NCBI GenBank assembly: GCA_002790315.1
Contig: PFUW01000008.1
Span: 1-6,817, forward strand
Length of the DNA stretch: 6,817 nt
Direction of reading: 5' to 3'
DNA from: Huberarchaeum crystalense [NCBI: Candidatus Huberarchaeum crystalense]
Lineage (GTDB): Archaea > Huberarchaeota > Huberarchaeia > Huberarchaeales
Shown: piece by piece, positions 1 to 6,817 of the stretch
How positions within the stretch are numbered: the first letter of the stretch is position 1
How the letters are laid out: each line of letters opens with the position of its first letter
Made by a program: the position numbers and the translations under genes
The notes under the pieces: model-generated
Seen by the model: the letters and a program-made list of their open reading frames with translations, nothing else
Told to the model about the DNA's origin: nothing
Databases searched by the model: none

Positions 1-3000
1 ATAATATTATGCTTGAAATTTGTATCACTGCCATAAATTGCTGAGTTAATAATATTTTGTTTTGGGGATTCAAATGCAATTTTTGTTAATAGCGCATCCT
101 TTTGTGCTAGCACACCAAACCGCATAATTCCTAAAGGTTTTCCATAGAAAAATAATCTATCTGCGAGCAAATCTAAAAATTCCTCGCGCACATCAATACC
201 TTGAGCTGTAAAAATAATATTTATATTTTCTAAAAATGTGGCGCGACCTGCTTCTAAACCAAAGATTTTGGTCATTTCTATAATATTATTAGAAAAAACA
301 CGAGTTGGATCTACTAATTCATTTTTCAAAACACCCAATATATTACTCCCGCGCGTTTCAATACAACCTTTATTTTCCAAAACATGCGCTTCAAGAATTC
401 TTGGTACTCCACGCACAATTTTTCTTAATATTCTGTTTTTCAAAAACATTATCTCTTTAAACCCGATTTTTTTAATAGAAAATCGCAATTCGTTTCCATT
501 TTCTGTTAAATCATATGTCTTGCTATGTTCAAGTTGCTTTACAATAAACTCAACATCTGCTTTATCAGAGCAAGTTAGCAATAATATGCCATTTTCTACA
601 TCTAATTTTACATCACTTACATAGTCTTGTATCTTTCGTTGAACAAGTTGATCTGCGAGATTTATCAAATCAGTTGGTTGCTTGGGATAAATTTGCATCA
701 ATTCTTTTGGCGGGTTTGCGCGCATTTCAAGAAAAGCAAGCAAATCATTTGAAGCCATAGTTCCAATAAGTGACCCTGATGATCCTGCAAAGTGAAACGC
801 ACTTAACGCGCTCTGACTTATTTTTTCAGATAAGGCATGGGCAATAATTATGCCAACAGGAGCTCCCACTGGCGGACAATCAAAATTTTGGTATTTTAAG
901 TTTTCTACAAATTTATTTTTTGTATATTCAAAAGTTACAACATTACTATCACCATCCCTAATTATATTTTTATCATCCATATACAAATCTTGAAGAGCAT
1001 AAACTAATTTTCTTTCACCATAACCCGTTTCAGGAATTATTGTGTAGGCAGTAATAAAACTCTCGCGCGAACTATAAGATGCAAAAACAAACTCTCTCGG
1101 TGTTAGTCCTTTTTTAAAGTTGCTTTTAATAAATCCGCGTGCTTCTGGTGAGGTGTTGTCTCTTTTTATATGAGAAATTGCGCGTCCATCATAACCTATT
1201 TCAGGTCTTCCATTAGTAATAATTTGCTGACCACACATTCCAACCATTTTACCAAAGTTAGGATATCCTCCACGAGCACCTGAAATAGCCATAATATGTG
1301 CAGAGCTATTAATATTTGCATTTTTCAAAAGAATATCATAAACATTATTTCTTATATTATCTAGTTCATATATAATTTCTTGTTCTTTCATAGATCTAAT
1401 TTTTTTCTCAGCTTCAGCATATTTGGTTTCAATAAAAGAATCAATTGTGTTTTCAACTTTTTTATTAACTACATAATCAGACAAACCAACAGTAAAGCCC
1501 CTGTATTGAATTAAATAACTTAAACTGATATTGCAAATATTTTCAATAAGTTTAGCTGCTTCTTCAGGCGTTCTTTTAATATAAAAATCCTTAATCAAAA
1601 CTCCAACTGTTTTGTTTGTCAAAATCCCAGATATTATTCCATCTTTTATAATAACATCTTTTCCTTTGTATTCATAATCTTTTGGAAATATGGCTGACAA
1701 TATTTCAAGAGGTAGGTAAGAATCCTTGGATTTAAGATTAGAAATCACATCAAATGAGCAATTGCTTAAAATTTGCTGAGCTTGAGAAAAAGATATTAGC
1801 GACTTATCGTGAGACATTAAATACAAAGAGGAAATGTGTCCGTGTTTTGGTTTTATTAGCAAACTACCATCTCTAGCTGAAATTAAATTATACTTTACTT
1901 TCATAAGTGCTTCTGCCTCTGCTCTTGCTTCAATATCTTGCAAGAACCACATATTCATTTCATCTCCATCAAAGTCAGCGTTAAAAGGAGATGTAAGCAC
2001 CGGATTAAATCTAAATGCGCGAATTCCTGGCAAAACCTTTGCTTTAAATGCCATCACACTATATTTGTGCAAAGATGGTTGCCTATTAAAAATTAAAATA
2101 TCTCCATCTTTTGCATTGCGAAAGATAATCCAACCAGGAGCTAAACTGCTTGCTAATTCTTCTTTATTTTCAGCAGTAATTCGTCGTTTTGAACCAGTAG
2201 GCAAAACAACATTTAATGCACTAGGATATGTTCCGCTGTTTAAAATATAACTCTTCATTTCTTCAATGTTTCGTGATGTTACTACATCTGAAATACCCAT
2301 ATTTCTTGCTATTGTTTCAGGTACTCCTACTTCATCAAGTTTAAGATAAGGATCTGCGCTAATTACGCTTCTTGCTGCATAGTCAGTTCTTTTTCCTAAC
2401 AAATTATTTCTAAACATTCCATCTTTTGAAGTCAATCTCTGTATAAGTGTGTTCAAAGGGATATTTGAAGATGGGTGACGCGCAACGGCCACGCGCGAAA
2501 GCTCATTATCAATCAGAGTGCCAATATGATATTGCAAAAGCGACCACATATCTTCAATAACAACTTCAGGTGCGCCCTTTTCCAAGCTGGCTGATAAATA
2601 ATTGTTAATTCTTAATATGTCAGCATATTTATGGGTGAGGTCATCTTCTGCTTTTACTCCTGTTTCAAGTGTAATTGTTGGCCTAACTGTCAAAGGTGCA
2701 ACAAGAAAGTGAGTAAAAATCATCCACTCTGGTCTATTTAAAGGATTAAATCCCAAATAAACCAAATCCTCTGTTTTAACTTTTTCTAGCCAAGTGCGAA
2801 TTTGAATAGGGTTAATATTATGTTCATGGTCATTAAAAAAATAATCCCATGGAAGTTCAAGTATTATTTTGTCTTGGTTAGTGTTGCAAAATGGGCATGT
2901 TTTTGGTTTTTCTACAAGCTTTAAATAATCATCAATCATATGCAGTATATTATTTAAAGATTTTCCTTGTATTTCAAGTCTATTTTTTAAGGCATTAAGT

Positions 3001-3350
3001 TCTTGTTTTTTTTTGTCAGAAAAAAGCAATGCTCCGCATGATTGGCAAGTATAAGAAAGAATATGATGTATTTTGCGCGCAAACAGAGGATTTATAATAG
3101 GACGAGACAATTCAATATGCCCAAAATGTCCATAGCATTGGTTCATCATTCCGTGACATGTCTCGCAACGCACGCCAGGGGTAATAACTCCCATTCTTGA
3201 ATCTGCCAAGCCATTAGGAATTACAAAACCATCTTCATTATATAATTGATAATTATTAATATTTACTACAGCTATTTTTTTAATCATTTCAGGACTTAAA
3301 AGGCCAAAACTCATAGATTCAATTTTTTTTAGATTTATATTTTCAATCAT
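1..3350 (-). CDS. rpoA: DNA-directed RNA polymerase largest subunit, fused A'+A'' (Rpo1/Rpb1 family), 3'-truncated by window edge
   Basis: This is the largest, catalytic subunit of the archaeal RNA polymerase. The frame is open for 1116 codons from ATG at 3350 to the window edge without a stop. Landmarks in order: clamp zinc site C62/C65/C72 with GHFGH (74-78); second site C102-x2-C105 and C152-x2-C155; dock NRPEWM (205-210); GKRTDYAARSVIS (319-331); FNRQPSLHK (421-429); metal-binding loop NADFDGDEMN (457-466) with all three aspartates; funnel SGARGG (690-695) and CGQQ (706-709); bridge helix starting at GLTPREF (748-754); trigger-loop FHFAG (852-856); C-terminal GSN...VDPTR region (about 1001-1017). 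Archaea usually encode A' and A'' as two genes; here both halves share one frame with a very short linker. The start follows an AGGAGG and overlaps the rpoB stop as ATGA, implying translational coupling. The bridge helix and trigger-loop entry are unusually divergent. The missing end is probably only a short tail. The family assignment is secure; the taxon is not. Confidence 0.97.
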   Translation of the reverse strand, partial: MIENINLKKIESMSFGLLSPEMIKKIAVVNINNYQLYNEDGFVIPNGLADSRMGVITPGVRCETCHGMMNQCYGHFGHIELSRPIINPLFARKIHHILSYTCQSCGALLFSDKKKQELNALKNRLEIQGKSLNNILHMIDDYLKLVEKPKTCPFCNTNQDKIILELPWDYFFNDHEHNINPIQIRTWLEKVKTEDLVYLGFNPLNRPEWMIFTHFLVAPLTVRPTITLETGVKAEDDLTHKYADILRINNYLSASLEKGAPEVVIEDMWSLLQYHIGTLIDNELSRVAVARHPSSNIPLNTLIQRLTSKDGMFRNNLLGKRTDYAARSVISADPYLKLDEVGVPETIARNMGISDVVTSRNIEEMKSYILNSGTYPSALNVVLPTGSKRRITAENKEELASSLAPGWIIFRNAKDGDILIFNRQPSLHKYSVMAFKAKVLPGIRAFRFNPVLTSPFNADFDGDEMNMWFLQDIEARAEAEALMKVKYNLISARDGSLLIKPKHGHISSLYLMSHDKSLISFSQAQQILSNCSFDVISNLKSKDSYLPLEILSAIFPKDYEYKGKDVIIKDGIISGILTNKTVGVLIKDFYIKRTPEEAAKLIENICNISLSYLIQYRGFTVGLSDYVVNKKVENTIDSFIETKYAEAEKKIRSMKEQEIIYELDNIRNNVYDILLKNANINSSAHIMAISGARGGYPNFGKMVGMCGQQIITNGRPEIGYDGRAISHIKRDNTSPEARGFIKSNFKKGLTPREFVFASYSSRESFITAYTIIPETGYGERKLVYALQDLYMDDKNIIRDGDSNVVTFEYTKNKFVENLKYQNFDCPPVGAPVGIIIAHALSEKISQSALSAFHFAGSSGSLIGTMASNDLLAFLEMRANPPKELMQIYPKQPTDLINLADQLVQRKIQDYVSDVKLDVENGILLLTCSDKADVEFIVKQLEHSKTYDLTENGNELRFSIKKIGFKEIMFLKNRILRKIVRGVPRILEAHVLENKGCIETRGSNILGVLKNELVDPTRVFSNNIIEMTKIFGLEAGRATFLENINIIFTAQGIDVREEFLDLLADRLFFYGKPLGIMRFGVLAQKDALLTKIAFESPKQNIINSAIYGSDTNFKHNI

Positions 3351-6300
3351 TTTTCCTCCTTGCTTTTTACACTGCTATAATCTGTTTCTGATTTAAGCAA
3401 TGGTGATATTCCCATTGCGCGCAAATAATTGATTACTGTATTTAACACAAAAGGAATTTCGACAAAAGATGTTTTTTCTTGCCTTGATATGCCTTTAACA
3501 GTGCGAGTTTGATAATCAAAATAAGGTGCTAAATATTGATTTGAAACAGGAATTTTTATAGAATCAATATCAAACAATGAATCAAGCACAGTTGTAGCTC
3601 CGTGTGCAAGTAAAGCATCTTTTTCCATTTCTCCAAATTTTAAACCTCCTGCTGATGCTTTGCCTTCTGTTGGCTGTCGAGTAAGTAGTGTGCGCGGACC
3701 TGTTGTGCGAACTTGCATTTTTCTTGAAACCAAATGTTCTAATCTTTGATATAACAAAGGAACTAAAAATATTTTAACTTTGAATTTTTCACCTGTTCTT
3801 GGATTATACATAACTTCATTTCCATCACCGTCAAACCCTTGTTTTTCAAGCTCTTTTGCAATTTCTGCCTCATCAAATACATCAAAAGCACTTGCTTCTT
3901 GAAGTTTTCCAGTAAGTATTGCATATTTGGCTAATATACCTGAAAGCAACTGCGCATAAGTCATTCTACTTGGAACGCCATGAGGGTTAAACAATACATC
4001 AGGTATAATTCCCTTTTCGCTAAAAGGCATATCATTTTCAGGAACAATTGCACTTATAACTCCTTTTTGCCCTTCTCTTAATGAAAATTTATCTCCAATT
4101 TCAGGAATGCAATCATAGTACATTCTTATTTTAACTATTTTTTCTAAACCATCATTAAAAGTTACAAGTATGTCATCAATATTATAATCTACAAAATCAT
4201 TACTACTAATAGAAGTATCCCATAAGCTTAGATATCCTTCAACATTAAAATAACCACTCATAAATCTTGGAGGAGCAACCTTACCTACTAAAATATTGTT
4301 GCGCGAAATAGTTTCACCTACTTTTATAATTCCATCTCCTTCAAGTTTAGAATAATAAATAGTATCTGATTTTCCTTTAACATCTTCTGCTGGGATTTGA
4401 ATTTTCTCGCTTAATCCATTAGCATATTTCTTTTCAATTACTTCTTTGTGCGTTAAAAAGATAGATCTTCCAACCCCACGCTCAATTGATGCTTTGTTAA
4501 ATATAAGTGCATCTTCCATATTTGAGCCACCTTCAACAAAAGCAACTACTAAGTTTTGCCCACCCATTAAAAGGCTTTTTTCAAATAAATCATGATATGC
4601 TGTTCTAACCAATGGTTTTTGCAAATAATTAAGAACATGTTTATTTACATCATAAGTATTGAAAAAGTTTGAGCTATATATTCCTGCTGCTGAACCTTTA
4701 ACTTCTTTAACAGATTTTCCCAATCTTGGTGCATCACTGTGGTTTGCCAAAGGAAGCATATTTGCAGCAACTCCCATAACAGATGTAGGATTAATTTCCA
4801 GGTGAGTGTGGTCTTTTGTTAATTCGTCTTCGCTAAACGCAACAAATGCTTCATTTTCTTCATCTGCTCCAATATATTCGATTATTCCCTTGCTAACAAG
4901 ATCAAACCATTTTATTTCTTCTTTTTTAACCTTTGCAGCAATCTCTTTTGTATACATTGATTTTCCATTGTTTACTACAATCAACGCTCTTATCAACATA
5001 CCTTTAATTGCTTCGATGAATAAATTTTTATCTTTTGAATAAATTTGATAGTGGTAATCAATTATGCCTTGCCGCCTCAAGTCGCGCAACTTTGATTTTA
5101 AAGCATCAATATTATCGCAAGTCATAATAGGTATTGTGTCATAAAAAACAAGATTTTTTTCAGCAAAAATATTTGAACTAAAATTATAATGTTTTGCTCC
5201 TTGCTCTTTTAATATTTGCTCTACTTTCTTTTTTTGTTCAGGAACAGGCATTGCAGTAATAGCAAAAATTGCTGCTTGCTTTGTTAAGCCAACTTTGGAA
5301 TCTTCAGGAGTATCTACAATACAAATTCTGCCAACATGAGATCCATGAATATGGCGCGCTTCATCTGTTGCAACATCCATATCTAAATTTGAGTTAATTT
5401 GGCGAAGAAGAGTAAGTTGTTGAAGTGCATTCTTTTTTTCAAGCAAGTGTGTAACACCTTTGGTGCCATTTGGCCATGCACCTGTGCGAAGGGCATTGTA
5501 AATATAAGTATTCATTGACTCAAAATTAACAATAGTAGCTAAATTCCACTCTCGCTTTCGCGTTCTAATAGATGCAAAATAGCGCGAAATATCTCTAGCA
5601 AGCACATTAAAAGCAATATTCATTAAGCTTTTTAATTGTTCGCCAACCAAAAGAAGCTCTTTGTTTCCTATAAAATCCTTATCTACTCGGTATTTGGGGT
5701 CTTTATAATATATATTTGCCATATGTGCCAAATACAGTGCTTTTTCTTTATTTGCTGACTCCTCTCTTCCAATATGAGGTAATAAACCAGAGTGAATAAA
5801 GTTTAAAACATCTTGGCGGCGATTAGTTTTAGGAATATGCGCTTTATTTCCTATCATTTCTATTGCTTCTTCTCGATTTTTAGGAGCATCTTGAAAATTA
5901 ATATACATCATTGGATTATCAATAAGCTGAATAATTTCTTTATCTGACTCTATACCTAAAATTTTAAACAAAGCAACAATAGGAAGACTTTTAAATCTTC
6001 CAAAAGAAAGCACAAGATGATTATCTTTGGTAAAATTAAGAGAATGTGGCGCGCGATACCCGCCAGTGTAAGAAAAAACCTGGGCTCGTTCACCTGCTAC
6101 AAGCACTTTATTTGAAACAAGTTCTTCAATCGCAACAACAAATCTCTCAACACCATCAATAATAAAATAACCACCAACATCAAAAGGATCTAATCCTTGC
6201 TTAATCTTTTGACTTACAGAAATTTTTGGAAAAAATGGATCAATGACACTACCAATCATAATTGGAAAATCGCATAGTTTGACGCGCTCTTTTAAAATAT

Positions 6301-6580
6301 GCTCTCCTTGTTTTGTCAATTCTACCTCAGCAGATATAGGTATAGAATAATTCAAATTGCGCAATATGCACTCTTTTGGAGAATATTTGGGTGTTCCAAA
6401 GGTAGGATTAGAAAAAGAAAAAACAAAAATTCCTTTCTCGCCAGCATCAATAGTTATATCTGAAAGCGTTGTAAACATATTTATTAACTCATGCACAACA
6501 TAATAATTATAAGAATCAAGATGCAATGAAGAAAGAGGAATTGCGTTTATTGTTGCTTTTACTAACTCAAGATTTTGCAT
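3347..6580 (-). CDS. rpoB: DNA-directed RNA polymerase second-largest subunit B, unsplit (Rpo2/Rpb2 family)
   Basis: This is the second-largest subunit, forming the other wall of the active cleft opposite RpoA. The protein is complete at 1077 aa from ATG at 6580, somewhat shorter than typical unsplit archaeal B (about 1120 aa). Landmarks (numbered from that ATG): GGYFIIDGVER (136-146); HGSHVGR (412-418), the counterpart of HPSHWGR; EINPTSVMGVAANMLPLANH (595-614); NMEDALIFNKASIERG (687-702), keeping the Glu-Asp pair; GDKFSLREGQKG (829-840) with both catalytic-centre lysines; IPDVLFNPHGVPSRMT (859-874); LTRQPTEG (966-973); GEMEKDALLAHGA (983-995); C-terminal EIPF...MGISPLLK. The zinc ribbon expected between AHGA and EIPF lacks cysteines entirely, yet the final anchor is intact, so this is not a truncation. 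An in-frame TTG lies two codons upstream at 6586, but no SD is suitably placed for it; ATG has a weak GAGAGA 7 bases ahead. The stop overlaps the rpoA start. Confidence 0.97.
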   Translation of the reverse strand: MQNLELVKATINAIPLSSLHLDSYNYYVVHELINMFTTLSDITIDAGEKGIFVFSFSNPTFGTPKYSPKECILRNLNYSIPISAEVELTKQGEHILKERVKLCDFPIMIGSVIDPFFPKISVSQKIKQGLDPFDVGGYFIIDGVERFVVAIEELVSNKVLVAGERAQVFSYTGGYRAPHSLNFTKDNHLVLSFGRFKSLPIVALFKILGIESDKEIIQLIDNPMMYINFQDAPKNREEAIEMIGNKAHIPKTNRRQDVLNFIHSGLLPHIGREESANKEKALYLAHMANIYYKDPKYRVDKDFIGNKELLLVGEQLKSLMNIAFNVLARDISRYFASIRTRKREWNLATIVNFESMNTYIYNALRTGAWPNGTKGVTHLLEKKNALQQLTLLRQINSNLDMDVATDEARHIHGSHVGRICIVDTPEDSKVGLTKQAAIFAITAMPVPEQKKKVEQILKEQGAKHYNFSSNIFAEKNLVFYDTIPIMTCDNIDALKSKLRDLRRQGIIDYHYQIYSKDKNLFIEAIKGMLIRALIVVNNGKSMYTKEIAAKVKKEEIKWFDLVSKGIIEYIGADEENEAFVAFSEDELTKDHTHLEINPTSVMGVAANMLPLANHSDAPRLGKSVKEVKGSAAGIYSSNFFNTYDVNKHVLNYLQKPLVRTAYHDLFEKSLLMGGQNLVVAFVEGGSNMEDALIFNKASIERGVGRSIFLTHKEVIEKKYANGLSEKIQIPAEDVKGKSDTIYYSKLEGDGIIKVGETISRNNILVGKVAPPRFMSGYFNVEGYLSLWDTSISSNDFVDYNIDDILVTFNDGLEKIVKIRMYYDCIPEIGDKFSLREGQKGVISAIVPENDMPFSEKGIIPDVLFNPHGVPSRMTYAQLLSGILAKYAILTGKLQEASAFDVFDEAEIAKELEKQGFDGDGNEVMYNPRTGEKFKVKIFLVPLLYQRLEHLVSRKMQVRTTGPRTLLTRQPTEGKASAGGLKFGEMEKDALLAHGATTVLDSLFDIDSIKIPVSNQYLAPYFDYQTRTVKGISRQEKTSFVEIPFVLNTVINYLRAMGISPLLKSETDYSSVKSKEEK
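3355..3361 (-). promoter_or_regulatory. strong Shine-Dalgarno for rpoA
   Basis: AAGGAGG lies within the last sense codons of rpoB (Lys-Glu-Glu), followed by AAAA and then ATG 3350, whose last two bases also form the rpoB TGA stop. It is a near-perfect anti-SD match with a slightly short 4-base spacer. Together with the ATGA overlap it indicates re-initiation or coupled translation, which would keep RpoB and RpoA stoichiometric. It also argues for a prokaryotic translation system. Confidence 0.8.
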
Positions 6581-6621
6581 CAGCAATATCTCTCAACAAA
6601 CATCATAAAGTAAGTTGCCAC
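6580..6621 (-). other. possible 13-codon mini-ORF linking rpoH and rpoB
   Basis: The rpoH stop overlaps a GTG (TAGTG at 6623-6619). That GTG opens a 13-codon frame, VATYFMMFVERYC (the first residue would be Met if initiated), which stops at TGA (6582-6580) overlapping the rpoB ATG as TGATG. A GAGGAG lies 7 bases before the GTG, a good SD distance. A ribosome could therefore pass from rpoH through this frame to rpoB without a break. The function would be coupling rather than a peptide. It may equally be chance, since the gap is only 40 bases, and nothing about the peptide is recognisable. Confidence 0.22.
6588..6594 (-). promoter_or_regulatory. weak ribosome binding site for rpoB
   Basis: GAGAGAT sits 7 bases before ATG 6580 and only 1 base before the alternative TTG 6586. 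The spacing decides the start in favour of the ATG. The match to the anti-SD is weak, in contrast to the near-perfect site before rpoA, so rpoB may rely on coupling from upstream translation. Confidence 0.4.
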
Positions 6622-6817
6622 TAAACAACTCCTCTATAATATATTTTTCCATTTTTGCGTGTGATTTTAATAATGTCACCTGGTTTGCCTTTAATTGCTT
6701 TGATTACAGGGTCAGTTATATCTATTTTTGGCAAATTTTCAAAAGAAATACTATAAAACTCAAATATTTTTCGCGCTTCTTCGCTTGTTATGATTTTGTG
6801 GTCTGGTACAAGATAGT
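6621..6817 (-). CDS. rpoH: DNA-directed RNA polymerase subunit H (Rpo5/Rpb5 C-terminal domain), 5'-truncated by window edge
   Basis: This small archaeal-specific polymerase subunit corresponds to the C-terminal domain of eukaryotic Rpb5, which sits at the downstream-DNA jaw beside the largest subunit. Sixty-four complete codons are visible (first at 6815), ending in TAG at 6623-6621. The visible protein begins YLVPDHKIITSEEA, matching the family's LVP-x-H-x-I-x-(S/T)-x-EEA start. It continues with LPKIDITDPVIKAIKGKPGD and ends IKITRKNGKIYYRGVV, matching the family's LPKI..DPV.KA...KPGD.IKI.RKS....YYR.VV core. Archaeal RpoH is usually about 75-85 aa, so only some 10-15 N-terminal residues should be missing. 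Its position just upstream of rpoB is the classic archaeal arrangement and argues that the cluster is cellular or of cellular descent. In contrast to parts of RpoA and RpoB, its core looks ordinary. No promoter for the operon is visible; it would lie beyond the right edge. Confidence 0.95.
   Translation of the reverse strand, partial: YLVPDHKIITSEEARKIFEFYSISFENLPKIDITDPVIKAIKGKPGDIIKITRKNGKIYYRGVV
6629..6634 (-). promoter_or_regulatory. GAGGAG Shine-Dalgarno-like site at the rpoH 3' end
   Basis: GAGGAG lies inside the last rpoH codons (the Arg-Gly-Val stretch), 7 bases before the GTG at 6621. It is too far (about 48 bases) from the rpoB ATG to serve that start directly, so if it is used it supports the mini-ORF. 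It also encodes conserved-type RpoH residues, so its presence may be incidental. Confidence 0.3.

Follow-up and report, generated by a model that had tools for sequence, protein, structure and literature searches.

The largest RNA polymerase subunit (RpoA) of Huberarchaeum crystalense keeps the catalytic residues that we checked, while the mobile shell formed by the bridge helix and the trigger loop is rebuilt. Our main reading, to which we assign a probability of roughly 0.5, is that this is an active housekeeping polymerase in which bending would have moved to the C-terminal hinge of the bridge helix and backtracking would be reduced. What appears new is the combination of isoleucine at the position of yeast Rpb1 T831, loss of all six hinge glycines and prolines, and proline at the position of A832; proline at A832 also occurs in other archaea, among which K830 and the N-terminal glycine pair (GG) of the helix vary too. 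The combination was absent from the genomes read and was not found in the literature searched, which is thin in subscription journals.

The minus strand of the window, by which we mean the whole stretch of 6,817 nucleotides analysed, contains rpoA, rpoB and the 3′ part of a small open reading frame (ORF) located 5′ of rpoB (Table 1). The rpoA product is the largest subunit of an archaeal RNA polymerase by domain, motif and gene-order tests: Rpb1 domains 1–5 lie consecutively in one chain, with all five Pfam matches exceeding their cut-offs; the catalytic motif NADFDGD is found at residues 457–463; and rpoB is followed by rpoA, with the small rpoH-like ORF first. We take this ORF to encode RpoH/Rpo5; the order rpoH-rpoB-rpoA is the typical archaeal arrangement. 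The window ends at residue 1116 of RpoA. The complete ORF of 1141 residues is present on contig C46 of a second assembly of the genome containing the window (G000; 0.5 Mb, 75% complete, a single RpoA found), and since this ORF holds all five Rpb1 domains, the A′ and A″ parts are fused. By eye, an inverted repeat (AAAACCCC...GGGGTTTTT) with a T run, 3′ of the rpoA stop codon, is terminator-like; it is located at about 7105–7155 of stretch L002, just outside position 1 of the window. In base composition, the window (33% GC) contains GCGCG 29 times and CGCGA 12 times, against 2.4 and 2.5 occurrences, respectively, expected from dinucleotide shuffles. GCGC is about 3-fold above the dinucleotide prediction in three other stretches of G000 (L033, L186 and L187), an excess that is explained by trinucleotide content.

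Table 1. Features of the window. Positions are those of the 6,817-nucleotide stretch; residue numbers are those of the encoded protein.
Feature	Position	Strand	Remarks
rpoA, fused largest subunit A′+A″	3..3350	minus	residues 1–1116 of 1141; stop codon outside the window
Trigger-loop region, residues 832–878	717..857	minus	Q846, L849, F852 and H853 kept
Trigger-loop hinge H2: ASN (866–868) for GLP	747..755	minus	G in 96/96 and P in 87/96 other archaea
Trigger-loop hinge H1: SEKI (841–844) for GEPG	819..830	minus	compared with 96 archaea
Bridge helix, residues about 751–787	990..1100	minus	from translation and alignment
P773, at yeast A832 / mjA′ A822	1032..1034	minus	Pro in 24/176 other archaea
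I772, at yeast Rpb1 T831 / mjA′ T821	1035..1037	minus	Thr in 176/176 other archaea
S760 S761 for GG of the N-terminal bridge-helix hinge	1068..1073	minus	G in 63/96 and 83/96 other archaea
Catalytic DFDGD, residues 459–463	1962..1976	minus	intact
rpoB	3347..6586	minus	TTG start, 1079 aa; overlaps rpoA
RpoB C-terminal zinc ribbon, apparently lost	3494..3544	minus	C1015S, C1031K
RpoB APRLGK, residues 619–624	4715..4732	minus	K624 aligned with yeast Rpb2 Y769
Small ORF upstream of rpoB	6621..6815	minus	3′ part; 81 aa in the genome contig

The bridge helix of RpoA reads ASYSSRESFITAYTIIPETGYGERKL, without a gap relative to those of other archaea, and the minus strand between positions 1005 and 1109 translates to GLTPREFVFASYSSRESFITAYTIIPETGYGERKL. 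Among the phmmer alignments listed, the helix is also gap-free against the bridge helices of solved archaeal Rpo1N subunits. In the ungapped alignment, I771, I772 and P773 fall at K830, T831 and A832 of yeast Rpb1, and S760 and S761 at the GG pair. The original prediction had used the same alignment and residue numbers, which the comparison with the solved helices shows to be right; its text, however, ran GLTPREF directly into ASYSSRES, where the translation has V-F between them. Its central claim, that the helix is abnormal, was borne out: the residues are identical in G000, and a bridge-helix profile gave the window 16 bits and every other archaeal helix found in the run at least 52 bits, with seeds taken partly from the scored genomes, which are thereby favoured.

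A helix that resembles none of those of the relatives read might be an artefact of assembly or sequencing, or the product of a compensated frameshift within the helix. Against an artefact, the same helix occurs in the window and in G000, although the two are not identical elsewhere: four of the 6817 bases differ, all of them outside the bridge helix, and two of these differences change an amino acid (RpoB residue 890 and RpoA residue 467). A random error is therefore unlikely, and the rpoA ORF is intact over its 1141 residues. A compensated frameshift is unlikely because the other two frames of the strand hold stop codons and no canonical bridge helix. We rate the chance of an error of either kind as very remote. 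A lack of relatives with the same residues, proposed earlier as a sign of error, cannot decide whether the helix is real, because G000 is the only genome of its phylum in the set compared; since that set comprises about half of the GTDB species, sister genomes may exist.

The archaeal comparison covered 176 other genomes, namely 96 aligned RpoA sequences, a group of 21 helices and a second group of 59. The RpoA sequences came from rpo stretches of 97 of 100 relatives (G052 and G082 gave no match and G087 was omitted), with L054 taken out as its bridge helix lies outside its stretch; the second helix group lost one of its 60 members (L303); and the 21 and 59 helices were drawn from better-matching genomes, so that they are a non-random sample. 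Lys-Thr-Ala at K830/T831/A832 had been called nearly invariant, which is true of the threonine, present in all 176 genomes, but not of the lysine or the alanine. Among the 96 aligned archaea, the K830 position is occupied by R (74), K (12), S (4), N (3), V (1), L (1) and Q (1), and the A832 position by A (27), S (24), P (12), R (10), K (7), G (6), Q (5) and E (5). Nor was the emphasis on the proline as the abnormality sustained: it occurs in 24 of the 176 genomes (12/96, 5/21 and 7/59 by group) and is already published (PMC8204694), and the proline was dropped as a candidate novelty on these grounds. Judged from the alignments, the odd residue of the helix is I772 rather than the proline. Two further positions set the window RpoA apart from all 96 aligned archaea, residue 781 (Lys, Arg in the others) and the T834 position (Thr, Ser in the others); yeast also has Thr at the latter.

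We extended the comparison to viral contigs. A broader profile search of IMG/VR gave 80 loci, of which 76 had clear helices (57 distinct) and three (L217, L219 and L224) gave no bridge helix. Threonine occupies the T831 position in 76 of the 77 readable contigs. The exception, the Rpb1-like protein of L228 (IMGVR_UViG_3300012920_000028; 2539–7362; a reading frame of 1612 aa), has isoleucine there by alignment and is the only other such case that we saw. It resembles the window RpoA in this isoleucine and in keeping NADFDGD, but differs from it in having alanine at A832, an extra helix residue and an H1 that keeps GEP. Loci L229–L290, except L230, encode mostly proteins of about 900 residues that are similar to RNA polymerase largest subunits and β′-like by eye; their bridge helix is usually near RKGLLDVALNTGTSGYLSRKL. 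A degenerate IIPETGY pattern matched three times in the genome contigs, never within an RpoA, and had no match in the viral contigs; protein searches for close relatives, together with a few peptide patterns, returned none from either set.

Simulations of bacterial RNA polymerase place the hinges of the trigger loop at GEPGTQ (H1) and GLP (H2) and those of the bridge helix at its N-terminal glycines (PMC3533926); mutagenesis of the Methanocaldococcus jannaschii enzyme backs the GG pair and a C-terminal bridge-helix hinge (PMC2988716). Of the six glycines and prolines concerned (bridge-helix GG, G/P of H1 and G/P of H2), the window RpoA keeps none. The other 96 archaea keep at least two, with all six present in 58 of them; the minimum of two is seen in five genomes, which likewise carry SS at the GG pair. 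At H1, the others have proline in 95/96 and glycine at the S841 position in 74/96. The alignment at H2 holds one inserted residue, which makes it the least certain of the hinges. The C-terminal hinge of the window helix is P773-E774-T775-G776-Y777, with R780. An AF2 model made from 35 sequences (mean pLDDT 69.5) is below 50 at residues 760–787 and 805–880 and silent on hinge geometry, and it was left out of the argument.

Outside the hinges, the two large subunits keep the RQPSLH arginine and trigger-loop Q846, L849 and H853 of RpoA, as well as R621, K833, K841 and R874 of RpoB, residues to which we assign catalytic and NTP-contact roles. Activity is expected, since every catalytic or NTP-contact residue checked is present, and the sole RpoA copy found in G000 most likely belongs to an active housekeeping RNA polymerase. 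RpoB also keeps E691-D692, presumably the Metal-B pair of the Nanoarchaeum equitans paper, in which N. equitans has Gln. Beside the kept K833 and K841, position H838 of RpoB, His in 84 of 85 other archaea, is Glu here, which weighs against the main reading. The last 94 residues of RpoB are devoid of Cys, C1015 and C1031 being near-invariant in the archaeal panel. The genome also encodes a protein of 112 residues that we read as TFS; its zinc ribbon is of the TFIIS type and has a DE tip.

The 3′-terminal pair is probed by T831 in yeast Pol II, where T831A lowers cleavage and T827 and Rpb2 Y769 become coupled to the frayed end (PMC4838855). The T827 position is A768 in the window RpoA (T 63, K 25, S 5 and Q 3 in the 96 archaea), and the Y836 position is kept. 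We take RpoB K624 to stand at the position of Y769 in the yeast numbering of this subunit; the 85 other archaea have M (35), Y (25), F (9), L (6) and others (10) there. Under the main reading, the helix would bend mainly at its C-terminal hinge by way of the proline kink, perhaps with a contact between E774 and R780, while the N-terminal bridge-helix hinge and the base of the trigger loop would be stiffer. Replacement of T831 and T827, together with Lys at the Y769 position, would alter the sensing of frayed RNA 3′ ends, and the enzyme may backtrack or cleave less readily, a TFS-like factor still being present. These changes could have co-evolved stepwise within a fast-evolving lineage. That the T827 and Y769 positions vary among archaea speaks against the main reading. 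The full mechanism, in which the Gly/Pro hinges are gone, translocation depends on the proline-kinked C-terminal hinge and isoleucine at the T831 sensor leaves little backtracking, seems to us rather unlikely.

Published archaeal enzymes offer two points of comparison. The N. equitans RNA polymerase, which has proline at the A832 position along with other radical changes, is active in vitro, and the proline at this position is described as causing a substantial drop in the M. jannaschii enzyme (PMC8204694). The N. equitans, Woese- and Pacearchaeal helices share with the window the proline at mjA′ A822 (PMC8204694; the equivalence of neA′ P810 and mjA′ A822 is deduced from that of R808 and R820 in this paper), and two pacearchaeal sequences with fused A′/A″ are named in the same source. 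N. equitans is also like the window lineage in having trigger-loop changes and a reduced genome, but keeps Arg at R820, where the window has Ile (PMC8204694). In the 24 proline-bearing archaeal helices (‘TPKSGY’), R/K-T stands before the proline and K-S-G-Y after it, whereas the window has I-I-P-E-T-G-Y. Thus, the window helix has the proline of the nanoarchaeal type and lacks its R/K-T-P-K-S-G-Y context; unlike the N. equitans/Woese-/Pacearchaeal type, the window enzyme also loses all six hinge residues.

The second comparison is with M. jannaschii mutants. T821P and A822P remain detectably active, superactivity is seen with S824P and Q823D/E (PMC2776397), and a triple-proline BH-HC mutant is still superactive (PMC2988716). 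Activity falls severely whichever residue replaces G809/G810, T821 accepts no substitution without noticeable loss, and R820 shows substantial loss except with Phe or Trp (PMC2776397, PMC2988716, PMC8204694). The window is like these mutants in its proline at A822, its acidic residue at Q823 and its kept R829 (PMC2776397, PMC2988716); it is unlike them in being natural and in adding T821I, R820I and loss of GG, changes at positions where the M. jannaschii enzyme tolerates single substitutions poorly. Single changes thus look harmful by these mutants, which counts against the main reading. The earlier suggestion that the helix may be compensated by other changes gains plausibility, given that RpoB and the trigger loop have changed as well.

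The divergence of the lineage as a whole bears on how these changes are to be read. We counted changes at panel-invariant positions, defined as those at which no more than one compared row departs from the shared residue, with rows close to the tested genome left out. RpoA is changed at 15/98 such positions (partial rows L065 and L093 dropped; next genome 11/106, median 1, leave-one-out with distant rows), RpoB at 25/107 (86 of 91 rows, those longer than 950 aa, with the window's genome included; next worst genome 8/105), and EF-1α of G000 at 13/100, the most of the 45 compared (next 6/96). The same EF-1α (L187, C33:500–2800) scores 525 bits against an NCBIfam cut-off of 540. Fast evolution of the lineage thus shows in each of the three proteins tested, and most strongly in RpoB. 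The 16S sequence of G000 had matches in 302 of 393 other genomes sampled, all related at the domain level only; among the matches listed, the best has 70% identity over about 1230 bases and partial ones reach 73% over about 780 bases. In a FastTree tree of RpoA+RpoB (90 rows), the window branch is 1.76 long and the next longest 0.60; phylogenetic placement by this tree was dropped, the branch being too long for trust.

Lineage-wide divergence explains part of the change, because RpoB and EF-1α likewise diverge more than any other member of their panels and no second genome of the phylum is in the set compared. The invariant counts of EF-1α and RpoB, the long branch and the distant 16S match all favour drift in a fast-evolving, reduced-genome lineage, in which relaxed selection and compensation would leave kinetics, bending and fidelity near normal; so does N. 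equitans, likewise reduced, with its active divergent RNA polymerase (PMC8204694). We consider drift of this kind quite possible, somewhat short of an even chance. Against it, the RpoA changes are concentrated in the mobile elements: 3/9 positions are changed at residues 741–800 (bridge helix) and 5/10 at 801–870 (trigger loop and preceding linker), against 7/79 in the rest (8/19 versus 7/79, Fisher p=0.0014; the test was picked after the helix had been flagged, and the trigger-loop figure is independent of the flag). Loss of all six hinge residues, moreover, is seen in none of the 96 other panel archaea.

A specialised, degenerate or mobile-element enzyme, working beside a canonical one as Pol IV/V do in plants, or as a viral polymerase might, could also carry such a helix. 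Pol IV and Pol V are known cases of diverged bridge helices and trigger loops (PMC2988716, PMC10229537), and, like the window enzyme, have diverged active-site elements and a proline close to the C-terminal hinge of the bridge helix. Their proline aligns with mjA′ S824 (PMC2988716), whereas that of the window is two residues earlier, with T775 at the S824 position; and Pol IV has a two-residue bridge-helix deletion (PMC10229537), whereas the window helix has no deletion by the ungapped alignment. At 75% completeness of G000, a second, canonical RpoA could be absent from the assembly. Yet the window enzyme, unlike Pol IV/V, is the only RpoA found in its genome, its gene overlaps rpoB with a small rpoH-like ORF before them, EF-1α of the same genome has diverged likewise, and IMG/VR yielded no close relative of the C-terminal third of RpoA. 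An enzyme of this sort is, in our judgement, highly unlikely here.

The finding adds an apparently phylum-level archaeal lineage with core transcription proteins far beyond the range of the panel. Models of nucleotide addition, in the papers cited here, give the GG hinge, H1/H2 and Thr831 specific roles on the basis of mutants and simulations, and a natural, presumably active enzyme without GG, H1/H2 and Thr831 opens them to direct testing. The window RNA polymerase is a possible test case for which active-site joints such enzymes need. If the full mechanism outlined above holds, with translocation on the proline-kinked C-terminal hinge and little backtracking, the accepted set of hinges would be one solution and no requirement.
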